A DNA stretch of 64,000 nt, from positions 1 through 64,000 of the forward strand of contig CAJOEZ010000024.1 in NCBI GenBank assembly GCA_905233685.1. Reading direction: 5' to 3'. Positions 31,516 to 35,301 of this stretch are shown here, in pieces. The position numbers were made by a program, and so were the translations under genes. The notes under the pieces were generated by a model. The model was not told the origin of the DNA, did not search any database, and saw only the letters and a list, made by a program, of their open reading frames with translations. This stretch comes from an uncultured Bacteroidales bacterium. GTDB lineage: Bacteria; Bacteroidota; Bacteroidia; Bacteroidales; F082. The first letter of the stretch is position 1. Every line of letters begins with the position of its first letter.

Positions 31516-32175
31516 TTATTTGTTTGGGAAGAATTTGTCATCAGGCCAATGGGCGGGGTTGTTGATGATGTAATTGGATATTTCGCAAAGGGATTGGTCG
31601 TTGCGTATAATGTGTTCATAATAATTGCGTTGCCACAATTTGCGGTCGAAAGGCGGCCAATCCAATTGTTTCACCCCACGAATGTATTCGTTGGTGGACA
31701 TGGTTTTGAACCAACCCACCACCGCCGACAATGGTGAACCCGATACATTTTCAACCCAATCCGAATCGTTCACGACATCCCGTAGGGGCGCACCTGCGTG
31801 TGCGCCCTCATTAATTACGTGGTTGTTTTTTACAGGGCGAACACATGGGTTCGCCCCTACATCCAACGCATTTTCCAACCCCACGTTTTCCCAAATGCAA
31901 TGGAAATGGTTGGGCATGACAATCATTTCGTGACAAACGATGTCGGGGAAATTCTCTTGGGTTTTGTGATACCACCGTTCGACCATGCGTCCCGCGTCGT
32001 TCAAAACCATTTCGTCGTTTTCGATTTCACCGAACAGACATTCGCGGTTTTGTGTGCAAATGGTGACAAAATACAATCCCGCCGAGGCGTAATCGTAGCC
32101 TTTTAGGCGGATGGAACGGCGGTGATGAATGTTGGGATCATAGGGGGACATGGGCGTTAGAATTTGATTGCGCAA
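31516..32175 (-). CDS. REP-associated tyrosine transposase (RAYT)
   Basis: 219 residues (211 if the second ATG at 32151 is used). A Y1 HUH single-strand nuclease of the IS200-like RAYT branch: N-terminal HHRRSIRLKGYDYASAGLYF, HUH motif H90-F-H92 in MIVMPNHFHCI, and catalytic tyrosine in NYYEHIIRN (~185-186). RAYTs are single-copy housekept transposases thought to move REP hairpins. Adjacent composite REP units with GTAG feet fit this. Residues ~106-132 (GANPCVRP to GAPLR) are encoded by one composite REP unit (31782-31860) lying in frame inside the gene, so a loop between the HUH and Tyr motifs has been extended without breaking the frame. Confidence 0.85.
   Translation of the reverse strand: MRNQILTPMSPYDPNIHHRRSIRLKGYDYASAGLYFVTICTQNRECLFGEIENDEMVLNDAGRMVERWYHKTQENFPDIVCHEMIVMPNHFHCIWENVGLENALDVGANPCVRPVKNNHVINEGAHAGAPLRDVVNDSDWVENVSGSPLSAVVGWFKTMSTNEYIRGVKQLDWPPFDRKLWQRNYYEHIIRNDQSLCEISNYIINNPAHWPDDKFFPNK
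31782..31860. repeat. Composite REP unit A, inside the RAYT gene
   Basis: Left arm 31782-31808 starts GTAGGGGCGCAC and closes with GTGCGCCCT. Right arm 31834-31860 starts AGGGCGAAC and closes GTTCGCCCCTAC. Each arm is a hairpin and the outer ends (GTAGGGGCG / CGCCCCTAC) are inverted relative to each other, as in E. coli BIMEs. Confidence 0.75.
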
Positions 32176-32191
32176 AAATAATGATTTTCCC

Positions 32192-32257
32192 GTAGGGGCG
32201 CACCTATGTGTGCGCCCGTTTCAAAAATTTGTGTGCCTGTATTAACCGTGTGCGCCC
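32192..32257. repeat. Partial REP unit B
   Basis: A complete left arm at 32192-32217 (GTAGGGGCGCAC, loop, GTGCGCCC), then a lone GTGTGCGCCC at 32248-32257 without a right arm. First repeat upstream of the RAYT start. Confidence 0.7.
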
Positions 32258-32293
32258 ATTTTAAAAACATCATCGTTTTGTTTTGGTGACCCC

Positions 32294-32396
32294 GTAGGGG
32301 CGCACCTATGTGTGCGCCCTCATTAATTATGTGTGCGCCCTTTTGAAATGCGATATCGTTTTGTTTGGTAGGGCGAACACATGGGTTCGCCCCTAC
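32294..32396. repeat. Composite REP unit C
   Basis: Left arm 32294-32320, a partial extra GTGTGCGCCC near 32340, and right arm 32370-32396 ending CGCCCCTAC. Same organisation as unit A. The spacer contains GATATCGTTTTGTTT, shared in diverged form with unit E. Confidence 0.75.
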
Positions 32397-32419
32397 GATG
32401 GTGTGTCATTGTTTATGGT

Positions 32420-32467
32420 GGGGCGAACATTTATTTGGGGTGGGCGAACACATAGGTTCGCCCCTAC
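32420..32467. repeat. REP right arms, unit D
   Basis: A truncated GGGGCGAACAT followed by a complete right arm (GGGCGAAC, loop, GTTCGCCCCTAC) ending at 32467. No left arm. Confidence 0.65.
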
Positions 32468-32549: not shown

Positions 32550-32582
32550 TTTGTTTGCGTATCTATCTTTTTTCTATATTTG
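32550..32582 (+). promoter_or_regulatory. Promoter of the structured RNA / methylase operon
   Basis: TTTG at 32550-32553 and TATATTTG at 32575-32582, 21-base spacer. It is the only good promoter upstream of the methyltransferase gene at 32899. Confidence 0.7.
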
Positions 32583-32587
32583 CGCTC

Positions 32588-32845
32588 GGTTTCGGGGGAG
32601 AAATCCCGATTCCGCAAACGAAGCATTTGCTATTATTTCGCGTTCAGCCAAGAGAGCCTAGGAAACTTTGATTGGTATAACAAGCACGGAAATAATAGGT
32701 GACAGGTGAACCGTTCAGGTTCTTCTGTTATGTGGTTATAGCAATGCACACGCATGGCGTGTTGCATTCTTGTTCACATACAGAGGTACCATATTCCTAG
32801 GCTTCACCTCTTGCTGAACGCTATAAGAGGCATCACGCCTTTTTG
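32588..32845 (+). ncRNA. Long structured RNA or leader, unknown class
   Basis: About 258 bases with dense complementary pairing. A 5' hairpin uses TCGGG/CCCGA near 32592-32609; GCAAA/TTTGC forms a second at 32614-32630. GCGTTCAGCCAAGAG (32640-32654) pairs with CTCTTGCTGAACGC (32808-32821, one bulged base). Next to it AGCCTAGGAA (32655-32664) pairs perfectly with TTCCTAGGCT (32794-32803), giving a ~24-pair closing helix. Inside are AACAAG/CTTGTT (32679/32769), a hairpin GAACC/GGTTC (32708-32722) within ACAG/CTGT, and an 11-pair hairpin at 32743-32768. A short stem AGGC/GCCT with Ts (32828-32844) may terminate it. No long frame. It does not look like tmRNA, RNase P RNA, SRP RNA or a tRNA. Confidence 0.65.
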
Positions 32846-32862
32846 TTGCGTCTTGGCGTGAT
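32827..32862 (+). promoter_or_regulatory. Possible terminator/antiterminator pair before the methylase
   Basis: AGGC and GCCT around ATCAC, followed by a five-T tract, form a weak terminator at 32828-32844. ATCACGCC (32832-32839) can instead pair perfectly with GGCGTGAT (32855-32862), which would break the terminator stem. The arrangement suggests controlled read-through into the methyltransferase gene; this is inference from pairing only. Confidence 0.4.
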
Positions 32863-32898
32863 TGGTAGTCGATGCTAAACCATTAACTATCAATCATT

Positions 32899-34049
32899 AT
32901 GGCAAACACGAATTTGGCAAACGCCAAAACTGCAAAAAACGACGAGTTCTATACGCAGTATCCCGACATCCAAAAGGAAATCAATGCCTATTTGGACTAC
33001 AACCCCGATGTGTTTCGGGGCAAAACGGTGCTTTTGCCCTGCGACGACCCAGAATGGAGCAATTTCACGAAGTTTTTCGCGCAAAACTTTGAGTTGTTGG
33101 GCCTGAAGAAACTGATTTCCACCAGTTATCACCCGAAAGCAAGAAATACAAAGTCCCTTGGCAGCCCACGCTTTTCGAGACAGAACAACCTTATTATGAC
33201 GTGGACAAAAGCAAGACCAACGGCAAAATCTTTGTTTTGGAGCGCGACATAACGGGCGACCGCCGCATCAATATTGATGATTTGGAGTGGCAGTATTTGG
33301 AAGGAGATGGCGATTTCCGCAGCAAAGAGATTCGCAAATTGCGCGACGAGGCCGACATTATTGTAACTAATCCACCGTTTTCATTATTTCGTGAGTTCAT
33401 GGCCTGGTTGATGGAATCAGGAAAGCAATTTGTTATTGTTGGTAACATGAATGCTATAACTTACCGTGACATCTTTCCACTATTGAAAGACAATAAGATA
33501 TGGCTTGGCAATGGATTTCAAAACGGGAATGCTTACTTTCGGATTGAAACTCCCAGAAACGATTATTCAGAGGGCGTTTATGATGAAAGCACCCAACTCG
33601 TAAAGTTTCGAAATTGTTGTTGGTTTACTAATATAGACCATGGTCGTCGTCATCAACCTTTACGTTTAATGACTATGGCTGAAAACTTTAAGCATAGCAA
33701 GCATAAGGAGATAAGAGAAAAGAAGAAGTATGAACGCTATGACAATTTCGATGCAATAGATGTTCCCTACACAGATGCGATTCCAATTGATTACGATAAG
33801 GTAATGGGCGTGCCGATTTCTTTTATGGAAAAATATTGCCCCGAACAATTTGAGATTGTTTGGCGTGGCGGAGATATTGATTGGTGTGAAAAAGAATGTG
33901 ATTTCTATACGCCACCAACTAAGGAAAGAGCAGATTATTACAAAAAACAAGATAAAACTTGGCGAATTCAAAATCCGTATGTCTTAGATGAAAATGGGAA
34001 TGCTATCGTGGTCTATCAAAGAATTCTAATCAGAAAAAAGCAATCATAA
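32899..34049 (+). pseudogene. EcoRI-family adenine-specific methyltransferase, frameshifted
   Basis: The N-terminal part (from the ATG at 32899, MANTNLANAKTAKNDEFYTQ) continues in frame to about 33130; then the homologous reading moves to another frame (PESKKYKVPWQPTLFETEQ, then KTNGKIFVLERDITGDRRIN). A single missing base in the CCC run at 33132-33134 would restore one continuous protein of ~383 residues. Seen: LLPCDDPEWSNFTKFF (AdoMet-binding region), NPPF in IVTNPPFSLF (catalytic motif IV of N6-adenine methylases), and the long EcoRI-methylase C-terminal part ending before TAA at 34047-34049. The frames taken singly end at 33252 and 34049. The stop overlaps the start of the DUF262-HNH gene (TAATG). 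Real mutation, sequencing error or programmed shift cannot be separated here. Confidence 0.8.
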
Positions 34050-35218
34050 TGAAAACGACATTTGAAACCTACACCGTCGAGCAGATTTGCGACGGTTTTG
34101 AATATAACGAATTGGAGGGAAAAGGTCTTTACGGCTTGTCGGGCAAATTGACCATCCAACCTGAATACCAGCGAAATTACATCTATGCCGATGGCAAGCG
34201 CGATGTGGCCGTAATTGAATCCGTTTTGAAAGGCTATCCATTAGGCCTTATCTACTTCAACAAAGTCGATGACGGTCGGCTCGAAGTGCTTGACGGTCAG
34301 CAGCGTATCACCTCGCTTGGGCGTTTCCTGAAGAACAAGTTCGCCGTGAAAATCAACGGTTTGGAGCAAATTTTCGATGGTTTGAACGAAGGAATGCAGC
34401 AGAAAATATTGCAAACGAAACTATTGGTCTATATCTGCGAAGGCGAGGGCGAGAATGCCGAGGAGGAAATCAAGGAATGGTTTAAGACCATCAACATTGC
34501 GGGTATTCCGCTTAACCATCAAGAGGAATTGAATGCTGTTTATAGCGGGCCTTTCGTCACATTGTGCAAGGCGGAGTTCAGCAACTCGCAAAACGCCAAC
34601 ATCCAGCGTTGGGAGAGTTATGTGAAAGGACCGGCCAACCGTCAGCAGTTTTTGGCCACGGCACTTGAATGGGTGAGCAAGGGTAATGTGGATAGTTACA
34701 TGAGTGCCCATCGCCGCGACACCAACATCGGCGAAATCAAGACCTACTTCAACACCGTCATCGATTGGGTGGACTCCAAATTTGACGATGTTTACGACGA
34801 AATGCAAGGCTTGAACTGGGGCGAACTGTACGAGCGTTTCCACGCCAACGCCTACAACCATTCGGAATTGTCAGTCAAGGTTCATCAGTTGATGCATGAT
34901 GATTTTGTGACTAATCGCAGAGGTATCTTCGAATATGTGTTTGGCGGCTGCAATGACACCAAACTGTTGAATGTCCGTTTGTTCGACAAACCCACCATGC
35001 GCAAGGTGTATCAAGAACAAACCGAAAAAGCCAAATCCGAAGGCGTGAGCAATTGCCCATATTGCGCCATCGGCCACGACCAAAACGCCCGCCGCATTTG
35101 GAAATTGGAGGAAATGGATGCCGACCATGTGACGGCATGGAGCAAAGGCGGCGCAACGGACATTGAAAATTGCCAAATGTTGTGCAAAACGCACAATCGG
35201 GCGAAGGGGAATCGGTAA
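34049..35218 (+). CDS. DUF262-HNH nuclease
   Basis: 389 residues. N-terminal DUF262 (GmrSD-N/ParB-like) domain: IQPEYQRNYIYADGKRD and the hallmark DGQQR at 82-86, used for nucleotide binding or hydrolysis in relatives. C-terminal HNH endonuclease: C336-P-Y-C339, D359-H360 in MDADHVTAWSKGG, and C375 with C379-KTHN, a zinc-stabilised beta-beta-alpha metal fold. This combination occurs in modification-dependent or restriction-like phage-defence proteins. Its ATG overlaps the methyltransferase stop by one base, so translation is probably coupled and the pair acts together. A REP unit starts 1 base after its stop codon. Confidence 0.85.
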   Translation: MKTTFETYTVEQICDGFEYNELEGKGLYGLSGKLTIQPEYQRNYIYADGKRDVAVIESVLKGYPLGLIYFNKVDDGRLEVLDGQQRITSLGRFLKNKFAVKINGLEQIFDGLNEGMQQKILQTKLLVYICEGEGENAEEEIKEWFKTINIAGIPLNHQEELNAVYSGPFVTLCKAEFSNSQNANIQRWESYVKGPANRQQFLATALEWVSKGNVDSYMSAHRRDTNIGEIKTYFNTVIDWVDSKFDDVYDEMQGLNWGELYERFHANAYNHSELSVKVHQLMHDDFVTNRRGIFEYVFGGCNDTKLLNVRLFDKPTMRKVYQEQTEKAKSEGVSNCPYCAIGHDQNARRIWKLEEMDADHVTAWSKGGATDIENCQMLCKTHNRAKGNR

Positions 35219-35219
35219 C

Positions 35220-35301
35220 GTAGGGGCGCACCTATGTGTGCGCCCTATTGAAATGTGATATCATTTTGTTTTTTAGGGTGAACACGCAGGTTCGCCCCTA
35301 C
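35220..35301. repeat. Composite REP unit E
   Basis: Left arm 35220-35246 (GTAGGGGCGCAC to GTGCGCCCT) and right arm 35275-35301 (AGGGTGAAC to GTTCGCCCCTAC). It lies between the DUF262-HNH stop and the ABC ATPase stop, closing the island opened by units B-D. Confidence 0.75.

Follow-up and report, generated by a model that had tools for sequence, protein, structure and literature searches.

The known controls of restriction systems are mostly proteins or phase variation, and how these systems stay quiet and then switch on is an open question. In ToxIN loci a terminator lies between the RNA and the gene, and the JUMPstart RNA serves as a leader RNA of surface-polysaccharide genes. We analysed a stretch of 64,000 nucleotides from an uncultured Bacteroidales bacterium (contig CAJOEZ010000024.1; the window), in which a folded RNA precedes the gene for an EcoRI-type adenine methylase and that for a DUF262-HNH protein. 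Judged by comparison with related genomes, the segment at 32623-32897 probably belongs to a large, undescribed family of attenuator-type leaders that act in cis in Bacteroidales and are common to restriction and envelope genes. In this and related gut bacteria, the leader has the look of an RNA switch shared by genes with a possible role in protection against viruses.

The folded leader RNA is real. The region 32580-32850 folds with -106.8 kcal/mol (z -7.7), and none of 200 shuffles equals the fold; the reverse strand of the region also folds strongly (z -6.0). A reading made earlier from the letters alone (the sequence-only reading) had described a well-formed promoter followed by about 258 bases of structured RNA at 32588-32845. 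The strong fold agrees with this, but the conserved element extends further 3', and contains an inverted repeat directly 5' of the ATG. The promoter was also borne out, with TTTG and TATATTTG fitting what we take to be the Bacteroidetes promoter type. Among 82 relatives, the -7 box TAnnTTTG was found up to 140 nucleotides 5' of the RNA in 54, compared to 4.7 expected from mononucleotide shuffles and 19 on the opposite strand. A sigma-70 scan, which does not cover the Bacteroidetes promoter type, gave no site at the window promoter. The leader runs in the order promoter, pseudoknotted domain closed by helix P1, terminator-like hairpin, inverted repeat and ATG.

A BLASTN search with the RNA region gave a match to at least part of it in 38 of 199 related genomes (E <= 0.01), several of these matches spanning the promoter region or the 3' end only. 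The conserved box GCATTNGCTATTATTTCGCG, allowing one mismatch, occurred 32 times in these genomes, 29 times ahead of a PF13651 (EcoRI_methylase) gene; two of the remaining three matches lay at contig ends and one (L250) ahead of an acyltransferase gene. When up to two mismatches were allowed, the box matched 42 times and the reversed pattern 7 times. The box lies on the same strand as the first gene, about 230-285 nucleotides 5' of it. We also inspected the upstream regions of 39 PF13651 genes of the same genomes, partly hand-chosen; 30 had an RNA of the same class as the window (class A), 2 a sister RNA (class B) and 7 neither. In named genomes, class A RNA was seen at 24 of the 74 PF13651 loci scanned (80 fetched), all 24 labelled as Bacteroidales groups and 16 of them members of the model itself. 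A DUF262 homologue was present in 130 of 160 fetched methylase loci, and the 280 nucleotides 5' of the methylase reached z <= -4 in 47 of 156 cases; with 25 shuffles per sequence, the same was true of 1 coding stretch out of 160.

Such tight pairing in the window's relatives, together with the order promoter, RNA, terminator, gene that resembles ToxIN, is what would be expected if the RNA served the methylase or the DUF262-HNH nuclease as a partner, be it a guide, an antitoxin or a cofactor, in the manner of type III toxin-antitoxin systems or RNA-guided nucleases. A covariance model (R1) run on 393 Bacteroidales genomes, however, gave 37 hits in 24 genomes, of which 20 lead PF13651 methylases (19 of these with DUF262 in the fetched flank) and 17 lead other genes. 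Eight of the 17 precede other restriction-modification or similar genes or helicases: N6_N4 methylases (L277, L298), Tsp45I (L281), D12 (L282/L334), MmeI (L291/L303 and L295), ResIII-HNH (L296) and an SNF2 helicase (L299). Five precede envelope enzymes, namely Acyl_transf_3 (L273), Sulfatase (L280, L283, L284) and GDSL (L292/L302), and four precede genes of unclear type (L276, L287, L297, L300). Restriction-modification or helicase genes thus follow 28 of the 37 class A hits. Since 17 of 37 hits lead genes outside PF13651, the view that the leader is dedicated to the methylase/DUF262-HNH pair as its partner is not supported. Furthermore, class A RNA is missing from 50 of the 74 PF13651 loci scanned in named genomes, and Pfam finds only GmrSD_N and HNH in the nuclease. 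An RNA dedicated to one toxin family, as in ToxIN, was not found, and neither was a cognate nuclease of the IscB, TnpB or Cas kind; both readings fit poorly with an RNA that stands ahead of several unrelated families of genes, and we regard a partner role as improbable. The sequence-only reading had left the choice between a cis regulator and a nuclease partner; position, gene set and mutually exclusive helices support the former, in a role that reaches beyond one gene pair.

Weak model hits (L287/L304, L297/L332, L300, L319, L326, L330, L331) were set aside. A second model (R2, 82 sequences) was run on 30 hit-bearing and related genomes, chosen because of their hits; as many as five copies scored >=89 bits in a single genome (G431), Eco57I and type III Mod genes joined those known behind the leader, and nine low-scoring hits that we inspected were class B/T-like. 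Across 345 genomes sampled from the phylum, R2 matched only the window's own genome, under strict filters that do not prove absence elsewhere. Some further observations concern individual copies. Leaders directly precede similar-looking, very small helix-turn-helix (HTH) proteins of about 70-100 amino acids in L354, L363, L365, L413, L317 and L332, a possible regulator class. Remnants of the 5' part stand ahead of a C5 cytosine methylase (L030/L251) and a DUF1016/YhcG nuclease (L325), and a sub-threshold DUF805b RNA hit lies just 3' of a weak leader hit (L331:503-538).

We then asked whether the helices are conserved in 35 class A RNAs aligned by sequence only (alignment A2). Forty pairs in five helices were paired in 94.6% of cells, compared to 35-41% in slid controls, and 21 pairs had changed on both sides, compared to 12.2 in shuffles. 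The stems therefore covary in homologues, most of the covariation being carried by P1 and P2 (Table 1). The pseudoknot PK2 is paired in 84.6% of cells, with both sides changed in 3 of 6 pairs. The box that starts with the mini-hairpin P0 is kept in A2 and in a wider class A set of 82 copies (A3), and a P0 hairpin is part of the consensus of a model of the sister classes (R3).

Model R3 was built from 14 RNAs, 11 of class B and 3 of type T, and matched at least 119 of the 393 Bacteroidales genomes, with five candidates per genome scored. We inspected 70 loci, comprising 30 best-of-genome matches and 40 picked by hand from the listed rest, a non-random sample, and assigned them to type T or type D by the 5' box. 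Restriction-modification calls were made by Pfam, by PADLOC (L364, L393) or by BLASTP to Pfam-typed relatives, and the SNF2 (L386) and ResIII (L397) helicases were kept out of the methylase/restriction-modification counts. Among 38 type T loci, 20 lead methylase or restriction-modification genes, one the SNF2 helicase and one a DarT-domain protein (L352), and the remainder comprise 3 small HTH proteins, 1 contig end and 12 other genes. The 32 type D loci include two methylase genes (L393, L402), the ResIII helicase, one small HTH protein and 28 others, of which 20 were Pfam-tested and lacked a restriction-modification family and 8 were judged by eye. The functional coherence of the downstream genes, seen in 20 of 38 type T against 2 of 32 type D loci, thus holds for class A and type T and not for type D. 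The window's own genome carries a further sister-class RNA (L359; G000:C6, C6:47532-47759) ahead of a partial N6_N4 DNA methylase.

The 3' strand of P1 has a second possible partner. In A2, a helix formed by this strand with a downstream segment (helix T) reached z <= -2 in 33 of 35 RNAs (mean z -3.66). In class B, an intrinsic terminator with a U tract was present in 10 of 11 core sequences, a count made with no shuffle control, and 9 of the 10 terminator-bearing sequences have a P1 with an overlapping strand at z <= -4. P1 and P2 of class B covary, and the terminator helix is paired in 89.0% of cells with a covariation score above all 500 shuffles. Alignment columns 148-150 of class B are common to P1 and the terminator, and in L043, L106 and L324 a change in columns 148 and 149 is accompanied by changes in both of their partners; although these events are few, such three-way changes would be the anatomy of a terminator/antiterminator switch. 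A further alternative, in which the P1 3' strand pairs with a middle segment of the RNA, was tried and not used; it reached z <= -2 in 30 of 82 copies, with a crude split into subclasses.

The RNA family, its helices, position and gene set, and the strand shared by the competing helices, are established by this comparison, and they point to the following model. Transcription would start some 35-80 nucleotides 5' of the conserved box, at the Bacteroidetes-type promoter, and the RNA would adopt a pseudoknotted domain closed by P1. Alternatively, the 3' strand of P1 would pair downstream to form a hairpin with a U tract shortly 5' of the gene; in sister class B the competitor of P1 would be a plain intrinsic terminator. 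P1 would then act as an antiterminator, and a signal that makes the domain more or less stable would determine whether RNA polymerase reads through into restriction-modification, helicase or envelope-modification genes. In this model the leader is presumably transcribed, the choice would be one of termination and not of translation, a single signal may unite the genes, and the direction of switching is putative.

The same hairpins could instead mark the end of a free-standing, trans-acting small RNA, in which case the genes would rely on read-through or on a promoter of their own. Terminator-like hairpins stand between RNA and gene in 47 of 82 class A copies (1.7 in mononucleotide shuffles) and are stronger in class B, and L250, a full copy of class A that precedes an acyltransferase gene, has no restriction-modification gene behind it. 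However, the inverted repeat and the ATG of class A lie no more than tens of bases further on, copies of different subtypes are followed by recurring, similar types of gene, and a strand common to P1 and the terminator is the mark of an attenuator. We therefore consider a trans-acting RNA unlikely. A reading at the level of DNA, in which the element is a mobile or recombination end that travels with exchangeable genes and the fold is a by-product of inverted repeats, would account for the unrelated genes behind the same element, for the repeats that flank the window island and for the 5'-only copies (L251, L325). Covariation in several helices, a kept pseudoknot and a terminator that shares a strand are, on the other hand, features of RNA, and the promoter motif lies on the RNA strand, making this reading highly improbable.

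Several results weigh against the attenuator-type leader. Helix T reaches z <= -2 in only 35 of the 79 A3 copies scored (of 82); the copies without it look like a second subclass. Beyond the class B core, 5 of nine further low-scoring relatives have a terminator, counted with no shuffle control, and the class B terminator covaries weakly, its 4 both-side pairs being reached by 128 of 500 shuffles. The pseudoknot PK1 is kept without proof by covariation, as none of its pairs has changed on both sides in A2. The inverted repeat that precedes the ATG may be an operator at the level of DNA. Among the genes, the 12 others behind type T include those for PAP2, a mechanosensitive channel, BspA-like, DnaJ and dynamin proteins, and type D stands ahead of mostly secreted or unknown proteins. 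Lastly, the methylase frame behind the window's own leader is broken.

A wider proposal is that a superfamily of riboswitch-like leaders forms a common gate for anti-phage functions in Bacteroidales. One domain would sense a signal common to all, which might be a metabolite, a trans RNA or a nucleotide linked to infection, and antitermination would switch on restriction, DarT/helicase-type defence and the modification of the surface. The whole would form an RNA regulon that is shared horizontally. We put this forward tentatively, as a possibility that is more doubtful than probable. Already a leader RNA common to many unrelated restriction operons and to envelope-modification genes would open the induction of defence in a dominant gut order to testing, and uncharacterised genes behind it would become candidate defence genes.

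Table 1. Features of the window around the leader (+ strand, positions of the window)
Feature	Position	Strand	Details
Putative Bacteroidetes-type promoter	32550..32582	+	TTTG 32550-32553, TATATTTG 32575-32582
5' leader with small hairpin (TTTCGGGGGAGAAATCCCGA type)	32588..32620	+	By-eye comparison; present in some Prevotellaceae relatives too
P0 mini-hairpin AGC-AUUU-GCU	32622..32631	+	Start of conserved box; box kept in A2/A3
PK1	32631..32697	+	UAUUAUUUC 32631-32639 with GAAAUAAUA 32689-32697; crosses P1; 93.2% paired
P1 closing helix	32640..32821	+	32640-32648 with 32813-32821; 98.4% paired; both sides changed in 7/9 pairs
P2	32656..32802	+	About 32656-32664 with 32794-32802; 98.8% paired; both sides changed in 7/7 counted pairs
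Apical hairpin	32745..32766	+	GGCGUG 32756-32761 can also pair with CACGCC 32834-32839 (PK2)
Competing helix T	32813..32859	+	32813-32829 with 32837-32859; U tract 32840-32844; z -2.5 in window copy
Inverted repeat just 5' of ATG	32860..32895	+	GATTGGTAG ... CTATCAATC; 95.6% paired; both sides changed in 4/9 pairs
EcoRI-type adenine methylase gene, frame broken	32899..34049	+	PF13651 (EcoRI_methylase) in both pieces; PADLOC MTase_II
DUF262 (GmrSD_N)-HNH protein, 389 amino acids, probable restriction endonuclease	34049..35218	+	PF03235 and PF01844; PADLOC REase_II

The two proteins were identified by the sequence-only reading as an EcoRI-family methylase and a DUF262-HNH nuclease forming a modification/restriction-type pair, and Pfam (EcoRI_methylase, GmrSD_N, HNH) and the PADLOC models agree, as does the one-base overlap of the genes at 34049. 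A methylase and a nuclease of restriction-modification type adjoin in the window, so that a type II pairing is present; an NCBIfam search gave nothing for the pair. The family of the methylase stands, but not a single open frame, as the gene consists of two overlapping open reading frames (32899-33252 and 33201-34049). Profile positions 1-80 of PF13651 fall at 32911-33162 and positions 79-345 at 33171-34040 in another frame, and the frame therefore breaks a little before 33171 (about 33140-33171). This could be an assembly error, and intact methylase relatives exist (for example L256). Elsewhere in the same genome (L258, C9:231500-235500), a divergent PF13651-type methylase adjoins what by eye appears to be a DUF262-type protein. 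Upstream of the leader, a Y1_Tnp-like (IS200/RAYT-type) transposase, sub-threshold in Pfam, is encoded at 31516-32175 on the minus strand, and a palindromic repeat, GTAGGGGCGCACCTATGTGTGCGCCC with variants, was seen by eye around 31800-32460 and 35219-35300, on both sides of the island. The two look like a REP/RAYT pair.

Two further observations concern RNAs outside class A. Type D copies, with a AAAAGCGUUAGCUUUUAUUC box (L357, L361, L370, L372-L375 and others), precede secreted, BspA-like or unknown proteins, several of them near contig ends. In Clostridia, different strongly folding RNAs (L062, L064, L083; z -6.3 to -7.9) stand ahead of PF13651/DUF262 pairs, with a terminator-like hairpin seen by eye just 5' of the ATG in L062 and L083; these are possibly independent leader families.

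A comparison with known families was made for the window and its relatives. No Rfam family reached threshold for the RNA: Rfam 15 at the gathering threshold gave only tRNAs in the window and 20 loci, and a search by E-value of the window region and 15 loci gave only sub-threshold hits. Identity with 6S RNA was considered and rejected; RF00013 was absent from the window's genome, with 5 of 14 controls matched, and the RF01685 (6S-Flavo) search matched none of the controls and was uninformative. By blastn, the window RNA had no match in plasmid and phage collections and a type T RNA none in plasmids. In IMG/VR, searched by exact pattern, a box of class A and a box of class B had no match, and a type T box had one, in an apparently truncated copy. 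At the level of titles and the starts of abstracts, and in passages of PMC8040213 and PMC2864571, the RNA family is not named. The cis-acting attenuator leader is a known kind of element; this family and its shared use by restriction and envelope genes were not found in Rfam or in those parts of the literature.

Riboswitches and attenuator leaders share with the present RNA a 5' leader with a conserved folded domain, whose closing helix shares a strand with a terminator, in the present RNA a putative one. They differ in serving one metabolic pathway, whereas restriction-modification, helicase and envelope genes follow the RNA here, which is pseudoknotted and about 270 nucleotides long. The JUMPstart RNA is similar in leading surface-polysaccharide genes. 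It differs in being gammaproteobacterial, and as RF01707 (table passage of PMC2864571) it belongs to Rfam, in which the present leader has no match. The window proteins are of the kind found in the type II restriction-modification pair of the PADLOC models MTase_II and REase_II, which are defined without an RNA leader. ToxIN loci are alike in placing a structured RNA beside a defence-type gene, and so are the DUF3800 loci and the AbiF loci (for AbiF, PMC12373285). In all three, the RNA goes with one protein family, whereas here one RNA leads several unrelated families.
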